Below are positions 24,093 through 30,358 of a stretch of 55,768 bases of DNA, piece after piece. The stretch is from Acidimicrobiaceae bacterium (GTDB lineage Bacteria; Actinomycetota; Acidimicrobiia; Acidimicrobiales; RAAP-2). Below the pieces are notes generated by a model. It made no database searches. It was not told where the DNA came from and worked only from the letters and a program-made list of their open reading frames with translations. The DNA is taken from positions 1 to 55,768 of the forward strand of contig PLKM01000016.1 in NCBI GenBank assembly GCA_003141095.1, read 5' to 3'. The first letter of the stretch is position 1. Each line of letters opens with the position of its first letter. The translations under genes and the position numbers were made by a program.

Positions 24093-25933
24093 TACTCGTC
24101 ACCTGACGTGGTTTGGGCCAGTACTTCGGCGTACAGCGGGGAGTTGGCGAGGAGCTCTTCGTGTGTGCCCGAGGCCACCACGCGCCCTTCGTCGAGCAGA
24201 ATCACCCGGCTGGCGAGGGCGATGGTGGAGATGCGGTGCGCGATGACAATGGTGGTGCGTTGGTGAAGGAGACGGCCCAGCGCTTCGTAGATCCCCGCCT
24301 CCACGTGCACGTCGATGGCGCTCGTGGCGTCGTCCAGGATCAGAATCGGCGGGTTCACGAGGAGCGTTCGAGCGATGGCGATTCGCTGGCGCTGTCCACC
24401 GGACAGGGTGTAGCCGCGTTCGCCGACGACCGTGTCGTAACCCTCGGGGAGGCGCACGATGAACTCGTGGGCGTTCGCAGCCTTTGCCGCCGCCTCGATG
24501 TCGTCGAACGACGCGTCGGGTTGGCCGTAGGCGATGTTGTCGCGAATTGAGATCGAGAACAGGAACGGCTCGTCGAGCACGACGCCGACGTTGGTCCTGA
24601 GCGAAGGCAGCGTGACGTCTCGAACGTCGTGGTCGTCAACGCACACCGATCCGTCGGCGACGTCGTAAAAGCGCGTGACGAGTCGAGCGACCGTCGATTT
24701 ACCAGATCCGGTCCGTCCCACGATCGCCACGGTCTCGCCGGCCGTGATGTGGGCGTCAAAGTCAGTGAGGATTTCGGCTCCGTTGGCGTATTCGAAGCGA
24801 ACGTGGTTGAAGTCGATGTCGCCCTCGACATCGACCAGGTCGAACGCACCGGGGCGCTCGACGATGTCGGGACTCTCGTCCAAGACTTCGAAGATACGCT
24901 CGGCGCTCGCCTTGGCGCGCTGACCCATCATGACGAGTTGACCCAGCATCATGAAGGGTGCCTGGAGCATCAAGAGATAGATGTTGAAGCTAAGGATGGC
25001 GCCAGGGCCCAAGTTCCCATGGAGCACCATCCAGCCGCCGAAGAAGAGGACCAGAGCGAGCCCGACTTGGGGAAGGTTCTGCACCCAGGGCGACCACAGG
25101 CCACGAATTTGGGCGTCCTTGATGTACGCCCACGCCACCCGTTCGGCGGCGTCGGCGAGACGATTCACCTCGGCCTCTTCCTGGGCGAAGGACTTCACCA
25201 CCCGCACGCCGTTGATGTTCTCGTCGACGATCGTCGCGACGTCGGCGAGGCGGGCCTGGGTGATCCACGAAATAGGAAAGAGCACCCGACGCATGCGGAT
25301 GCCCACGAAGTAGAGGACCGGCATGATGGTCATGGCAATGCAGGCCAAGAGGACGTTGATCGAGAGCATGAAGCCAAAGGCCAGGACGCCTATGGAGCAC
25401 TGCACGATGATCAGGGGGGCGAAGGTCGAGTACATCTGCACGCTTCGAATATCGCTGTTGGCCCGACTGATCAGTTGGCCCGACTGCACCCTGTCGTAGA
25501 AGGTGAATGAGAGCCAGGTGAGGTGCTCGTAGATGAGCGTGCGAAGGTCGGCCTCGACGTTGTAGGCGGTGTGATAGACGTACTGGCGTGAGATAATGCC
25601 CGTGATCCCCGCAATCACGCCGACGATCAGAATGTGCACGACGTCGGTGTGCAGGGCGCCCGAATTCTTGGTGAGCACGTTGTGGATGGCCCCGTTCAAC
25701 ATGTTCGGAACCAGCGTCTGGAACACCAGGCTGACAAATGACAGAGCAATCGCGGTGATGAAGGTCAATCGGTGCGACGCGATGATCGGCAGGATCCTTC
25801 GCCACCAGGCCAAGTTCCGGTCGCGCGAGATCTCCGCGCGTGGTCCCGGATAGTTGGAGCGGATGCCCCCAAGGGGATTGGCTTGAACCTGCTCTGGACC
25901 GTGCGAGGTACCGGTGCGGAGCGAAGAAGCCAT
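24092..25933 (-). CDS. ABC exporter half-transporter A (degenerate Walker B)
   Basis: The 613-aa protein has six membrane helices (about residues 45-330) and an ATPase domain with Walker A GRTGSGKST, a Q-loop changed to VVLDEPFLF, an intact LSGGQRQR signature, Walker B LILDDATSAID with Asp in place of the catalytic Glu, and H-loop IAHRI. With its partner it forms a heterodimer with one degenerate and one consensus ATP site, as in TM287/288 and BmrCD. The cargo (drug, lipid or peptide) is unknown. A TACGAT box exactly 6 nt before ATG 25933 suggests a leaderless message. Confidence 0.9.
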   Translation of the reverse strand: MASSLRTGTSHGPEQVQANPLGGIRSNYPGPRAEISRDRNLAWWRRILPIIASHRLTFITAIALSFVSLVFQTLVPNMLNGAIHNVLTKNSGALHTDVVHILIVGVIAGITGIISRQYVYHTAYNVEADLRTLIYEHLTWLSFTFYDRVQSGQLISRANSDIRSVQMYSTFAPLIIVQCSIGVLAFGFMLSINVLLACIAMTIMPVLYFVGIRMRRVLFPISWITQARLADVATIVDENINGVRVVKSFAQEEAEVNRLADAAERVAWAYIKDAQIRGLWSPWVQNLPQVGLALVLFFGGWMVLHGNLGPGAILSFNIYLLMLQAPFMMLGQLVMMGQRAKASAERIFEVLDESPDIVERPGAFDLVDVEGDIDFNHVRFEYANGAEILTDFDAHITAGETVAIVGRTGSGKSTVARLVTRFYDVADGSVCVDDHDVRDVTLPSLRTNVGVVLDEPFLFSISIRDNIAYGQPDASFDDIEAAAKAANAHEFIVRLPEGYDTVVGERGYTLSGGQRQRIAIARTLLVNPPILILDDATSAIDVHVEAGIYEALGRLLHQRTTIVIAHRISTIALASRVILLDEGRVVASGTHEELLANSPLYAEVLAQTTSGDE

Positions 25934-25939
25934 TGGTGA

Positions 25940-25945
25940 ATCGTA
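25940..25945 (-). promoter_or_regulatory. -10 box for a leaderless ABC-exporter transcript
   Basis: TACGAT on the minus strand, followed by 6 nt and ATG 25933. It matches the spacing seen before ten other starts in this window. Confidence 0.5.
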
Positions 25946-26013
25946 CCGGCCAGGTAGAAACCTGCTTCAGTCTGCGCCGCCCGGGGTTCTCGACATTCGC
26001 ACGAGTGGCGGCG

Positions 26014-26019
26014 TAGTCT
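26014..26019 (+). promoter_or_regulatory. -10 box for leaderless upp transcript
   Basis: TAGTCT, then 6 nt, then GTG 26026. There is no ribosome-binding site between them. Confidence 0.5.
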
Positions 26020-26025
26020 GACCTC

Positions 26026-26667
26026 GTGCCTTCACCGCTTATCGTCAACCACCCCATTGTGGCGGACAAGATCCGTCAACTGCGTGACGCCACCACCTCG
26101 AACGCGGACTTTCTCCGCTTGGCCGGCGAGATCTCGCGATTCGTGGCCTACGAAGCATTCCGCGAGATGCCCGTCACCGCGACCACGGTGGATACGCCCG
26201 TCGTGAAAGGCGCTGCGGCCGTTCGAATCGAGAAGCAGTTCGTGATCGTGCCCATCCTTCGAGCCGGTTTGGGGATGATCCCCGCGGTGCAAGAGGTACT
26301 GCCCCGCCATCGGGTGTGTCTGGTGGGACTGCGTCGCAACGAGTCGACACTCCTGCCCGACGTCTACCTCGACGGACTGCCCGACGAGTTGGAGAGCGCC
26401 CCGGTGGTGCTCTGCGACCCCATGCTCGCCACCGGTGGATCGCTCGTCTGCGTGCTCGACATGCTGCGCCAGCGCGGGGCGGGAGAAATCACCGTGCTCT
26501 GTCTCATCGCGGCCCAGCCGGGGATTGACTTCGTCACGTCGCGCCACCCCGACGTGCAGATCGTCGCCGCGGCCCTTGACACCGAACTCACTGAAATTGG
26601 TTACATCACCCCGGGCCTCGGCGACGCCGGTGATCGACTATTCGGGCCGCCCGTTCGTTTGCACTAG
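26026..26667 (+). CDS. upp: Uracil phosphoribosyltransferase
   Basis: The 213-aa protein converts uracil and PRPP to UMP. It has the Upp N-terminus (LIVNHPIVADKIRQLRDATTSNADFLRLAGEISRFVAYEA), VPILRAGLGMIPAVQEVLP, the PRPP motif VVLCDPMLATGGS, and the uracil-binding end TELTEIGYITPGLGDAGDRLFG. The GTG start fits a leaderless promoter. Its stop overlaps by 2 nt the stop of the convergent cytosine deaminase gene. Deaminase and Upp together take cytosine to UMP. Confidence 0.93.
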   Translation: MPSPLIVNHPIVADKIRQLRDATTSNADFLRLAGEISRFVAYEAFREMPVTATTVDTPVVKGAAAVRIEKQFVIVPILRAGLGMIPAVQEVLPRHRVCLVGLRRNESTLLPDVYLDGLPDELESAPVVLCDPMLATGGSLVCVLDMLRQRGAGEITVLCLIAAQPGIDFVTSRHPDVQIVAAALDTELTEIGYITPGLGDAGDRLFGPPVRLH

Positions 26668-27134
26668 AGCCCGATGTCCTCGTGCCACAACTCGGGGTGC
26701 TCGTGTATGAACGTCGCCAGCAACTCGGTGCACGCGGGGTCGTCGAGGATGATGATCTCCACCCCGTACTCGCCCAACCAGTCGTGGCCGCCGTGGAAGT
26801 TCTCCGCCTCACCAATCACCACGGCACCAATGTTGAACTGGCGCACGAGTCCCGAGCAGTACCAACACGGGGACAGTGTCGTCACCATCACGGTGTCGGC
26901 GTAGTCGCGCCGGCGTCCCGCGCGACGAAATGCGTCAGTTTCGGCGTGCACCGATGCGTCGTGTTCTTGAACTCGACGATTGTGGCCCGATCCGAAAAGG
27001 ACGCCATCGCGCGAAAACAGCGCAGCCCCAATGGGTATCCCGCCCTCCTCGAGACCCTTCACGGCCTCGTCGTAGGCCGTAACCAAGAACTCTCGAGCCA
27101 GATGGATGTCGAGAGGCGCCCGAGGGGAACTCAT
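26664..27134 (-). CDS. Cytosine deaminase of the yeast Fcy1 / CDA-fold type
   Basis: The 156-aa protein has zinc ligands H63, C90 and C93 with catalytic E65 (VHAETDA and TTLSPCWYC). Its whole C-terminal third, VVIGEAENFHGGHDWL, then GVEIIILDDPACTELL and HPELWHEDIGL, resembles yeast cytosine deaminase, including the closing EDIG residues. The length (yeast enzyme 158 aa) also agrees. It is unrelated to the larger bacterial CodA amidohydrolases. The start at 27134 is chosen because the upstream extension to 27278 covers a divergent gene; CATACT lies 6 nt upstream. Guanine or another base is an alternative substrate, but the tail favours cytosine. Confidence 0.82.
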   Translation of the reverse strand: MSSPRAPLDIHLAREFLVTAYDEAVKGLEEGGIPIGAALFSRDGVLFGSGHNRRVQEHDASVHAETDAFRRAGRRRDYADTVMVTTLSPCWYCSGLVRQFNIGAVVIGEAENFHGGHDWLGEYGVEIIILDDPACTELLATFIHEHPELWHEDIGL

Positions 27135-27140
27135 GGAATC

Positions 27141-27148
27141 AGTATGCT
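27141..27148. promoter_or_regulatory. Overlapping back-to-back -10 boxes for deaminase and phosphoribosyltransferase
   Basis: On the minus strand CATACT (27141-27146) is exactly 6 nt before the deaminase ATG. On the plus strand TATGCT (27143-27148) is 8 nt before GTG 27157. The two boxes share four bases, so transcription in the two directions may be mutually exclusive. Confidence 0.4.
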
Positions 27149-27156
27149 CCAACATC

Positions 27157-27765
27157 GTGGGCGAACGAACGTATTCAGTTGAGATCGGTACCCAGCGAGT
27201 TGATCTGCCGGTAGTGCCCTTGAGCGAGCAACTCGCCCTCGCCCTTCTTATTACGGTCGACATGGGCGTGAAATTCATGTCCCAGGCCGGTCTCGAGCTG
27301 GCTGAAATACTGCGTCCCTACGACGTCGACATCGTCGCGACCGTCGCGACGATGGGAATTCCGCTGGCAGTTGAAGTGACTCGACACCTGGGTCTCGATC
27401 AGTACGTGACCTTGCACAAGACCCCGAAGATTCATTTAGCCGACGCCGTCTTCGAGCCCGTTCGTTCAATAACGACCGATGCCGACCAGCGGCTTCTCTT
27501 CGACCGAGCTCGAGTCAAGGACGTCGAGGGAAAGCGCGTGGCGATTGTCGATGACGTGATCTCGACCGGTGCCTCCACCGGCGCGTCGCTTCGCTTGCTG
27601 CGCCGTGTCGACGCCAACATTGTCTGCATTGGCACACTCGTCACCGAAGCGTCGCTCTGGCGAGAAGCCCTAGGCAACGACGCCCAGATGGTGAGGGCCT
27701 TAGGGTCAATTCCTGTGTTTCGACCCGACGGCTCGGGTGGCCTCGTCGAGGACTGGGTCGGCTGA
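27157..27765 (+). CDS. Phosphoribosyltransferase (adenine/xanthine type, COG0503-like)
   Basis: The 202-aa protein has the type I PRTase PRPP loop VAIVDDVISTGASTGASLRLL, preceded by a substrate hood VVPLSEQLALALLITVDMGVKF. Further segments are VDIVATVATMGIPLAVEVTRHLGLDQYVTLHKTPKIHL and a C-terminal ALGSIPVFRPDG. It probably salvages a purine base to its nucleotide; the base is uncertain. GTG 27157 is preferred (8 nt after TATGCT). ATG 27133, preceded by AGGGG, would add 8 residues but would overlap the deaminase start codon in a shared CATG. A strong terminator follows. Confidence 0.82.
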   Translation: MGERTYSVEIGTQRVDLPVVPLSEQLALALLITVDMGVKFMSQAGLELAEILRPYDVDIVATVATMGIPLAVEVTRHLGLDQYVTLHKTPKIHLADAVFEPVRSITTDADQRLLFDRARVKDVEGKRVAIVDDVISTGASTGASLRLLRRVDANIVCIGTLVTEASLWREALGNDAQMVRALGSIPVFRPDGSGGLVEDWVG

Positions 27766-27776
27766 ACTTTCGAGTG

Positions 27777-27812
27777 CGCCGATCCCCGGGCGAGAAGGCC
27801 CGGGGCTCGGCG
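27777..27812. terminator. Bidirectional terminator hairpin
   Basis: CGCCGATCCCCGGGC pairs with GCCCGGGGCTCGGCG around a GAGAAG loop with one mismatch. It lies between the phosphoribosyltransferase stop and the convergent NCS1 permease stop. Confidence 0.85.
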
Positions 27813-27826
27813 TCTCTTCGACCGAT

Positions 27827-29374
27827 CTAGATCGTTGGCTCGAGTTCTTTTTGGCGCTTGACCTGCTTGGCCACATTCCCGGTCGCCTTTTCGAGCAGGA
27901 AGTAGATCAGACCGGCGACGATGATGCCCGTAGGGACCGAGAAGTCCGCACCTCCGAACCAACCGGCCGAACCGCAGTCGGCGACCTTCGTCCCCGCACA
28001 GTAGAAGGCGTTGAAGTGGTTGGAAATCGGCGTCATCCAGTGGAAGGGAAAGCCCACGGGAGGCGGAGCCTTCGAGAAGGCGAGCGTCGCGGTCACTACG
28101 CCGACCACGAACGCCGCGATGGCGTTCCAATTGATGCCCGACGATCCGGTGAAGTACAAACCGCCCTTGTCGGTGCGTTGCAGTTCGGCGGCGTTGTAGC
28201 GGAACCTGCGCATCATCCAGTCCATTAAGTAGATGCCCAGCCATGGGGCGATCCACAAGATGATGACCCCGACGAACTCCTTCATGTAGAGCGAGAACGT
28301 TGACTGGAACTCGGCCCAGATCGTGAGCCCGCACGCGATGAAGCTGTCGAGCACGACGGCCTGGTAACGCTTCAATCGAAGACCCATTGCCTGCAGCGAG
28401 ACGCCGGAGGAGTAGAGGTCGAGGGAGTTGATCCCGAAGAGCTGCACTATGGCGAACACCATGAAGAGCACCACCACCCAGCTCGGAATGTAGTGCTGGC
28501 TGCGAAAGGCCTCGAAGGGATTCGCTCCGTTCCACACAGTGCTGGTCGAGAGGAAGGTAAAAGTAAGGGCGCCGAGAATCATCATGAGGATCTCCGGAAT
28601 GGCGGTGCCAAGGAAGATCCAGCCCACGATGGCGCCCTTCTTGGCGTCGCGAGGCACGTACCGGCTGTAGTCGTTGCCGCACTCGGTCCAGCCGAGTCCC
28701 GAGAGAGCGAAGACAAAGGCGAGCCCCGCGGTGTAGAGCTGCCAACCGCCGAGGAATCCCTTGTCACTCGCGCTGCCGTGCTTGATGTCGTAGATGGCGA
28801 GCACCACAAATATCGCCCCGAAGGGGATGATGAGGGCGCGAAGGACCTTCACCATCGTCGCGTGACCGAGGTAGGGCATGACGGCTTGGATCGTCGCGGC
28901 CAAGATGATGAAGATCACCTTCAGCGGAGTCGAGACGTGAATGCCGGCCATCTGGCACAGGACGATGACGGCCCCGACGATGAGAATGAGCCCCTCGGTT
29001 TCAAAACCCAACTGCGTGATCCAGTTGAAAAAGCTGACGAGTTTCGATCCTCGCGATCCGAAAGCGGCTCGGCTGATCGCGAAGGCCGTGGTGCCGGTCT
29101 CGGGGCCCTGCAGCGACGCCAGGCCGAGCAGGAAGAACGAGAGGTTTCCGAAGATGATGATGGTGAGCGCGGTGTAGAAGCTGAACCCGAAGCCCATGAG
29201 CAGCGCTCCGTAGACGAAGTACTCAACGTTGATCGCCGAGCCCGTCCAAAGAGCGCCGATGTTGCGCGGCGTCGCCCATCGTTCATTCTCTGGAATGAAG
29301 TCGATGCCGTGCGTTTCGACTCGGAAAGCCTGGTCTCCAGACGAACCGTCGTGCGATTCCAATACTGATGCCAC
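27827..29374 (-). CDS. NCS1-family cytosine/purine permease
   Basis: The 515-aa protein has about 12 helices and NCS1 signatures: an N-terminal FIPENERWATPRNIGALWTGSAINVEYFVYGALLMGFG, LASLQGPETGTTAFAISRAAFG, GFETEGLILIVGAVIV, and GLGWTECGNDYSRYVP. It probably takes up cytosine, a purine or a related base, matching the salvage genes beside it. GTG 29374 is chosen because GGGAGG stands 9 nt before it; the open frame to 29497 is not protein-like. The longer hydrophilic loop near residues 445-470 carries several cysteines and glycines. Confidence 0.87.
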   Translation of the reverse strand: MASVLESHDGSSGDQAFRVETHGIDFIPENERWATPRNIGALWTGSAINVEYFVYGALLMGFGFSFYTALTIIIFGNLSFFLLGLASLQGPETGTTAFAISRAAFGSRGSKLVSFFNWITQLGFETEGLILIVGAVIVLCQMAGIHVSTPLKVIFIILAATIQAVMPYLGHATMVKVLRALIIPFGAIFVVLAIYDIKHGSASDKGFLGGWQLYTAGLAFVFALSGLGWTECGNDYSRYVPRDAKKGAIVGWIFLGTAIPEILMMILGALTFTFLSTSTVWNGANPFEAFRSQHYIPSWVVVLFMVFAIVQLFGINSLDLYSSGVSLQAMGLRLKRYQAVVLDSFIACGLTIWAEFQSTFSLYMKEFVGVIILWIAPWLGIYLMDWMMRRFRYNAAELQRTDKGGLYFTGSSGINWNAIAAFVVGVVTATLAFSKAPPPVGFPFHWMTPISNHFNAFYCAGTKVADCGSAGWFGGADFSVPTGIIVAGLIYFLLEKATGNVAKQVKRQKELEPTI

Positions 29375-29605
29375 TTGAGTGGTCCTCCCTAATAGATGGT
29401 GTTCAGTTGATACATCTTCGTGAGGCGCTAGACGTACGCGCCCAGTATGTCCGATAAATGCCGCGAAACAAGGAGTTGTGTGTCCGTTTCGTGACACTTT
29501 CCTTATTTAGTGGGTTCTTAGGCTCCCCCTAAAACCCTCAAAAACTGTGCCGCCAAGATGGTCATGCCTCGAAATACGTCGAGGTGTTGTCAGAAAGGTC
29601 CCCCC

Positions 29606-30358
29606 ATGTACCGCACAACAAAGAAGAAGCTCGTGAAGCGGGTCGGCGTATCCGCCGTAATTGCTCTGGGCGCCCTCGCTACTGGAGCCGGCGTCGCGAG
29701 CGCCGCGCCGTCATCCGCGAAAGGCACCTCCGCGACGGTCGCCTCGAGCCGAGAAAGCGCTCACGCAACCGTGCCGGGCCCTGGTTCGAGGTGCGCCCCA
29801 GGAGCGGGTGGGGTGGTCAGTGCGCTCACCAGCTCCTCGATCACCGTCGTGGACCCGAGCGGTACTTCGACCACGTTTAGCATTTCCTCGGCAACGACCG
29901 TGACCAAAGATCGTGCGATCGCCGCTGTTTCGGACCTGGCCGTCGGTGACCAGGTTCGAATCACTCCCACGGGGGCTGGTTCGACCACCGCGCAGAGTAT
30001 CGACATTGAACAGCCGAGCGTGATGGGCACGGTCACGGCCGTGAGCGGCGACACGATTACGGTCAGCGGCCCCAATGGCACCAGCGAAACCGTCGTGGTG
30101 AGCGGTGCAACGACTTACACGAAGAGTGGCGCCAGCGCCACGCTGGCCGACATCGCGGTTGGCACGTGGATCTTCGCCGAGGGCAACTTCTCCACGGGCA
30201 GCACGACGAACCTTGACGCCACGACGGTTGGCGTTGGCGTCGGTCAGGGACAACCTGGCGGAGGTCAAGTCGATCAGGGACAACCTGGCGGAGGTCAACC
30301 GTACGGACCAAACCCCCAGGGTGGCGGCCCCAGTCCCGCGTTCGCGCACGTTCGTTGA
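29606..30358 (+). CDS. Secreted DUF5666-type repeat protein with Gly/Gln/Pro-rich tail
   Basis: ATG 29606 follows AGAAAGG. A Sec signal peptide is clear: basic MYRTTKKKLVKRVG, a hydrophobic core VSAVIALGALATGAGVASA, and an Ala-x-Ala cleavage site near residue 33. The mature protein holds two related beta-rich units (about residues 67-130 and 136-195; GGVVSALTSSSITVVDPSGTS and MGTVTAVSGDTITVSGPNGTS), each of the small all-beta DUF5666 kind. The last 50 residues are a low-complexity tail with GQPGGGQ repeats. It is exported, with unknown function, and is followed by a hairpin. Confidence 0.78.
   Translation: MYRTTKKKLVKRVGVSAVIALGALATGAGVASAAPSSAKGTSATVASSRESAHATVPGPGSRCAPGAGGVVSALTSSSITVVDPSGTSTTFSISSATTVTKDRAIAAVSDLAVGDQVRITPTGAGSTTAQSIDIEQPSVMGTVTAVSGDTITVSGPNGTSETVVVSGATTYTKSGASATLADIAVGTWIFAEGNFSTGSTTNLDATTVGVGVGQGQPGGGQVDQGQPGGGQPYGPNPQGGGPSPAFAHVR
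30244..30298 (+). repeat. Two-copy 30-bp tandem repeat coding for the GQPGGGQ tail
   Basis: The 25-mer beginning TCAGGGACAACCTGG at 30244 recurs exactly at 30274, a period of 30 bp. It lies in frame and encodes the repeated (V/D)QGQPGGGQ segments of the secreted protein. A recent duplication is likely. Confidence 0.8.

Follow-up and report, generated by a model that had tools for sequence, protein, structure and literature searches.

A probable cytosine salvage island with an Fcy1-type deaminase in an Acidimicrobiaceae-like genome

Results

Gene content of the locus

We analysed a 55,768-nucleotide stretch of DNA (the window) from an Acidimicrobiaceae bacterium (contig PLKM01000016.1 of assembly GCA_003141095.1), in which genes for a uracil phosphoribosyltransferase (upp), a CDA-fold deaminase (fcy), a PF00156 phosphoribosyltransferase (prt) and a PF02133 permease of the NCS1 family lie side by side. 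A previous inspection of the letters alone (the sequence-only reading) had proposed this cluster, and all four genes were found at the places it gave. The upp gene (26026..26667, plus strand, GTG start, 213 amino acids) overlaps tail-to-tail with fcy (26664..27134, minus strand, ATG start, 156 amino acids), which in turn stands head-to-head with prt (27157..27765, plus strand). GTG 27157 is the most likely prt start and is preferred from the conserved spacing at this junction; an alternative ATG lies at 27133. Between fcy and prt is the 8-mer AGTATGCT (27141..27148), read on both strands as putative overlapping -10 elements from a comparison of fcy/prt junctions. The prt gene and the permease gene (27827..29374, minus strand; 515 amino acids from GTG 29374, with a longer frame reaching 29497) meet tail-to-tail across a strong hairpin that is assigned to neither strand (27776..27813). 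RNA folding of 27760-27832 gave -40.7 kcal/mol (z -3.56), and the hairpin is possibly a two-way transcription terminator; a terminator scan that required a T-run did not list it. The strand order of the four genes is + - + -. A single operon is ruled out by this alternation; the genes are adjacent only.

The deaminase resembles yeast cytosine deaminase over its whole domain

The fcy product matches PF00383. In a phmmer search of solved structures, yeast cytosine deaminase was the best match at 113 bits, compared with 52 bits for the tRNA-adenosine deaminase TadA and 28 bits for guanine deaminase. The match to the yeast enzyme spans residues 20-155 of 156, with 58 of the 136 aligned positions identical (43%); the likeness to the fungal enzyme noted in the sequence-only reading thus holds, but its restriction to the C-terminal third does not. 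The AlphaFold2 model of the monomer reached a predicted local distance difference test (pLDDT) score of 94.6. In Foldseek the 25 best PDB chains were all yeast cytosine deaminase (E values from 4.5e-17, query-normalised template modelling (TM) scores of 0.86-0.90), followed by guanosine deaminase and TadA from about 1e-10.

The zinc ligands and catalytic glutamate of the yeast enzyme (H62, E64, C91 and C94) correspond to H63, E65, C90 and C93 of the window deaminase, and the yeast pocket residues N51, F114, W152 and D155 to N52, F113, W150 and D153. All eight positions are invariant across 42 aligned sequences. In the yeast enzyme, E64, N51, D155 and G63 touch the ligand, and F114 and W152 line the ligand exit (PMC11000218). 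The bacterial relatives divide by their zinc loop into class 1, with PCWYC (in a few sequences PCWFC or PCYYC), and class 2, mostly with the PCxMC found in yeast. The window deaminase carries PCWYC in place of the PCxMC of the yeast branch and hence belongs to class 1. Given the best match to yeast cytosine deaminase in both sequence and predicted fold, and the retention of the zinc ligands and cytosine-contacting side chains, we consider it likely that the product of 26664-27134 is a zinc-dependent, Fcy1-type cytosine deaminase like that of yeast, encoded within a salvage island, as had been proposed.

Upp, the second phosphoribosyltransferase, the permease and CodA

Upp scored 222.9 bits against TIGR01091 (cut-off 208.35). 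No other full-length uracil phosphoribosyltransferase was found in the assembly, where the second match covers 56 model positions in a 334-codon frame. The prt product matches best with adenine and purine phosphoribosyltransferase models (119.2 bits for PRK07322, cut-off 143), staying below the cut-off of every NCBIfam model that it matched, and matches the adenine phosphoribosyltransferase 5zgo in the PDB at 81 bits. These scores make a purine-type enzyme most likely. The complete route from external cytosine to uridine monophosphate (UMP) that the sequence-only reading had drawn is accordingly reduced: the Fcy1-type enzyme together with Upp gives a possible cytosine-to-UMP route, whereas a part in it for the second phosphoribosyltransferase, which looks purine-type, finds no support. 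The permease matches PF02133 at 135.5 bits. In an alignment by eye its TQLGF lies against TQVGW of CodB, so that Gln105 is kept; the roles of Gln105 and Trp108 in CodB are those given in PMC9379551.

With E. coli CodA as query, the window's assembly (93% complete) gave no match at E<=1e-10, consistent with the earlier view that a small CDA-fold enzyme serves in place of CodA. Within the window's family, 3 of 61 genomes have CodA matches (51-53%) and none of the three has an Fcy1-type gene, an outcome with a chance of about 0.14. In a sample of the phylum, 37 of 396 genomes match CodA at E<=1e-30, 17 of them at 50% identity or more, and fcy is present in none of the 17. Mutual exclusion of CodA and Fcy1 was nevertheless dropped as evidence: its direction fits, but the numbers are too small.

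A short element between fcy and prt is a putative two-way leaderless promoter

The gap between the fcy ATG (27134) and the likely prt GTG (27157) is just 22 bp long and contains AGTATGCT, with the spacing TATGCT-N8-GTG for prt on the plus strand and CATACT-N6-ATG for fcy on the minus strand. Of the 43 distinct fcy/prt junctions compared, a set that leaves aside L056, whose fcy and prt lie 7 kb apart, 27 contain the 8-mer. Each of the 27 has an in-frame fcy start at a distance of 6-7 nucleotides (nt) and, across the element from it, an in-frame prt start at 6-8 nt; the element does not occur elsewhere in those 43 sequences. TATGCT is likewise rare outside the junction, with 22 of its 28 copies in 29 sequences lying inside AGTATGCT. 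Since the median for 8-mers of like composition is three copies in the 29 sequences, we do not claim that genomes avoid AGTATGCT. The 2.0 bits of conservation over the motif columns follow by construction from picking rows by exact match and are not evidence. The 2.51 Mb assembly contains two copies of AGTATGCT and 24 of the reversed pattern, which rules out a general -10 element used genome-wide. The second assembly copy is at G000:C34:52693-52700.

A leaderless-type -10 also precedes upp, where TAGTCT stands 6 nt before the GTG start (window 26014-26026). Of 50 upp loci, which include copies of one genome, 37 have TANNNT 5-9 nt ahead of a plausible start, taken as one no more than 30 nt from the aligned start; in 25 of the 37 that start is the aligned one. 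In the window, 9 of 50 predicted genes, from rough calls that include a false frame across fcy, have TANNNT 5-9 nt before their first start codon, compared with 42 of all 3433 ATG/GTG codons; this suggests that leaderless transcription is common in the window genome. From the spacing at the junctions we infer that AGTATGCT acts as a leaderless promoter in both directions, its overlapping -10 elements being TATGCT (prt) and CATACT (fcy). The whole 8-mer recurs, whereas the upp -10 varies, so AGTATGCT exceeds what a -10 needs, and a regulator may account for the additional conservation.

NCS1 permeases recur beside the deaminase gene

Neighbourhoods were read by tblastn over flanks of up to 1.5 kb, with the window permease, E. 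coli CodB and a Palleronia permease as queries. In the 30 loci fetched from a search of the window's phylum (the best 30 of 36), an NCS1 permease gene lies within 1.5 kb of fcy in 18: in 11 it is upstream and either like the window permease or remotely akin to it, in six it is CodB-like, downstream and on the same strand, and in one a CodB-like gene lies upstream of a class 2 gene. The pairing takes three layouts, with prt in between (the window's family), with the permease gene directly upstream (family f37, Mycolicibacterium and Nocardia) or with a CodB-like gene directly downstream (families f23, f45 and f41, and Blastococcus). On a Palleronia plasmid an fcy-type gene directly precedes a gene annotated codB. 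The presence of CodB-like and other NCS1 permeases beside the deaminase in other lineages therefore supports cytosine as the probable substrate. The full set of upp, prt and permease accompanies fcy in 22 of 80 named loci (the best 80 of at least 555).

Other companions were seen as well. In Streptomyces the deaminase gene abuts a gene for a 2-oxoglutarate (2OG)-Fe(II) dioxygenase in all three loci scanned (L062:8446-9411, L067:8449-9357 and L109:8440-9420), and in L062 and L109 a PucR-type regulator lies close by; the set is possibly a base catabolism unit. A remote member of the deaminase family, with 41.5% identity and without the WxEDIG end, is present on the atrazine plasmid pADP-1 (L115:5974-6450) and in seven further plasmid records, and in both records read (L115 and L178) a piece of an AtzD/TrzD-type ring-opening enzyme adjoins it.

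Evidence against cytosine salvage, and alternative functions

Several observations weigh against the cytosine salvage and promoter readings. Near the active site, yeast G63, D92 and M93 are replaced by Ala, Trp and Tyr in the window deaminase, and the replacements of D92 and M93 are nearly fixed in class 1 (PCWYC, PCWFC, PCYYC), so the specificity of class 1 could be shifted. The permease found no relative among solved structures, even when searched as a 14-row profile; in the alignment by eye it has Phe where CodB has Trp108, and three further PF02133 permeases are encoded in the assembly. Of the 30 phylum loci read, 12 showed no NCS1 permease within 1.5 kb, and none was detected in flanks of up to 1.5 kb at the 28 class 2 loci L142-L169. 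Among the 20 genomes whose CodA relatives are remoter, four contain fcy, and the failure of Fcy1 and close CodA to co-occur is not beyond chance, although it would fit a replacement of CodA by Fcy1. As to the promoter, AGTATGCT is absent from 16 of the 43 junctions, mostly those of remoter family members but also L008, L010, L074 and L127, with 75-77% identity in fcy. A scan of 25800-29700 for two-hexamer sigma-70 promoters found none (0.7 in shuffled sequences), so that the promoter reading draws on the -10 and the spacing.

The aromatic pairs (WY, WF or YY) at yeast D92 and M93 are also an argument for an alternative in which class 1 enzymes deaminate another small base, such as 5-methylcytosine, isocytosine or a triazine, with cytosine as a side substrate. 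The AtzD/TrzD piece beside the remoter relative (41.5%) on pADP-1 points the same way, as does the hint of base catabolism in Streptomyces, where the gene abuts the dioxygenase gene and a PucR-type regulator is near two of the three. The yeast side chains that contact cytosine are, however, all kept, and CodB-like permeases recur beside class 1 genes; we therefore regard another main substrate as improbable, if worth keeping in mind.

Inherited gene order alone, without joint function, might also have kept the four genes adjacent. In close relatives the ATP-binding cassette (ABC) exporter genes beyond upp are conserved as well, in many together with binding-protein genes, so general gene order explains part of the island; the alternating strands and the purine-type second phosphoribosyltransferase fit such a history. 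The island is nevertheless kept in four loci (L055, L059, L066 and L074) where the ABC-exporter match is weak or absent, the permease pairing recurs in differing layouts, and the start codons of fcy and prt are tied in position to a single short element. As a full explanation, inherited order is thus unlikely, and we retain the reading of a cytosine salvage island.

Phylogeny of the Fcy1-type family

In a tree of 73 rows (L080 was left out for having too few columns), class 1 formed one clade (support 100/100), the TadA rows stood apart (100/99) and class 2 did not form one clade; the yeast sequence joined a group of 28 class 2 rows plus one row from pADP-1 (97/88). Yeast again fell inside class 2 sets (95/91 to 100/98) in another tree, of 62 rows, from which several long-branched ones were left out. 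Class 1 was a bacteria-only clade in both trees (100/99-100), and the window deaminase grouped within it with its own family. In the 73-row tree, class 1 genes of Lysobacter (L106), Thiomicrorhabdus (L108) and Pseudoxanthomonas (L112) nest among actinobacterial rows, which suggests transfer of class 1 between phyla.

The sequence-only reading had raised two histories, transfer into the window lineage and an ancient bacterial source of the fungal gene. The second receives some backing, as yeast nests among class 2 rows. Yeast is, however, one long, partial row and the sole fungal sequence in the trees, and 28 of the 33 class 2 rows in the 73-row tree come from one phylum that was searched with a class 2 query. 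Approximately unbiased (AU) tests reject neither a grouping of yeast with class 1 (p 0.141) nor a position outside all bacterial Fcy1-like rows (p 0.29). For these reasons a bacterial source of fungal FCY1 is only suggested. Our wider proposal is tentative, at somewhat less than even confidence: the Fcy1-type enzymes would be a bacterial family of at least two classes, fungi would have acquired FCY1 from a bacterium with PCxMC (among the sampled rows nearest to Pseudomonadota), and the actinobacterial PCWYC class would be an alternative solution marked by a zinc loop of its own, for which a conserved leaderless promoter firing both ways would provide expression in Acidimicrobiaceae.

Entry of the window gene from fungi has the clear whole-domain similarity to yeast Fcy1 in its favour, but it is rejected on the trees, where the window deaminase lies in the bacteria-only clade. 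Yeast Fcy1, the one fungal sequence compared, is also more like class 2 (58% identity to L164) than like the window deaminase (43%), and we find a fungal source extremely improbable. A guanine or tRNA-adenosine deaminase shares the CDA fold, and the best NCBIfam model for the window deaminase is indeed that of TadA (NF008113); its 49.1 bits are far below the cut-off of 150, the TadA rows lie on a separate side of the trees, and guanine deaminase, compared by score alone, reached 28 bits against 113 for yeast cytosine deaminase, so this identity has next to no probability. No NCBIfam model reached its cut-off for the window deaminase or for four relatives. A separate TadA-like gene in the assembly (L002) scored 115 bits for a 104-amino-acid piece, itself under the cut-off.

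Occurrence in bacteria

In the phylum of the window, 36 of the 396 genomes sampled have an Fcy1-like match at E<=1e-15, 27 at 57% identity or more and nine at 46-52%. A class 2 query matches 48 of 398 genomes in the phylum of Pseudoxanthomonas, and 29 of the 61 genomes of the window's own family also match. A scan of named genomes gave at least 555 relatives; the best 80 include Acidimicrobiaceae metagenome-assembled genomes, Nocardia, Mycolicibacterium, Mycobacterium, Streptomyces, Saccharopolyspora, Lysobacter, Pseudoxanthomonas, Thiomicrorhabdus, Blastococcus and others. Three of the loci, under titles naming Saccharibacteria or Acidobacteria (L043, L047 and L048), resemble those of the window's family, and their titles are probably wrong. 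Judged by these counts the family is ordinary in bacteria, and the idea that such homology is unusual there can be set aside. Where the gene is annotated in the plasmid records read, it is labelled only 'nucleoside deaminase'. Literature listings, a weak guide since most subscription papers lie outside their coverage, contained no paper on bacterial Fcy1-type enzymes. The enzyme kind is known and common in bacteria, though poorly named.

Discussion

The locus is a real and well-preserved Fcy1-type island in an Acidimicrobiaceae-like genome. The catalytic mechanism is known for yeast cytosine deaminase, and by analogy Glu65 would activate a zinc-bound water that attacks C4 of cytosine, while Asn52 and Asp153 would hold the base under an aromatic lid of Phe113 and Trp150 until ammonia and uracil are released. 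Upp would then couple uracil to phosphoribosyl pyrophosphate (PRPP), yielding UMP. The neighbouring NCS1 permease most likely imports the base, with cytosine as its presumed cargo, and the Fcy1-type enzyme would stand in for CodA. The fcy and prt genes most likely fire from their shared two-way promoter, whose activity is predicted, with translation beginning at the first base of the mRNA; upp would be transcribed from a leaderless promoter of its own.

Two points are fresh: the proposed leaderless promoter that would serve both genes, and the division of the Fcy1-type family into classes. Recognition of these proteins as likely cytosine deaminases would fill in pyrimidine salvage in bacteria without CodA. 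Fungal FCY1 is the basis of flucytosine action, and bacteria with Fcy1-type enzymes are predicted to be sensitive to 5-fluorocytosine. The family would also supply further enzymes from which to develop the prodrug pair now based on yeast Fcy1, and it opens the origin of fungal FCY1 to testing.

Comparison with known systems

Yeast Fcy1 (PDB 1p6o and 1uaq) and the window deaminase share fold, length, the HxE and PCxxC motifs, the cytosine-contacting residues, the aromatic lid and the WxEDIG end; they differ in that identity is 43%, HGE becomes HAE and PCDMC becomes PCWYC in the window, and the best trees place them on different branches. The bacterial class 2 enzymes (PCxMC; for example L031-L033, L142-L167 and Palleronia L116) belong to the same family and have the same active site, 44-54% identity to the window deaminase over aligned rows and, in nearly all, the WxEDI end, but they carry the yeast-like zinc loop, do not form one clade and are nearer to yeast Fcy1. 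E. coli codBA resembles the island in pairing an NCS1 permease with a cytosine deaminase that feeds Upp. CodA, however, is an amidohydrolase with a fold other than CDA, and tblastn gave no match between E. coli CodB and the window permease. Two-way bacterial promoters with a symmetric -10 were reportedly described by Warman and colleagues in 2021. Like these, AGTATGCT is one short, near-symmetric element that would serve both strands; it would differ from them in that both products would be leaderless and more bases appear to be kept than a -10 needs.

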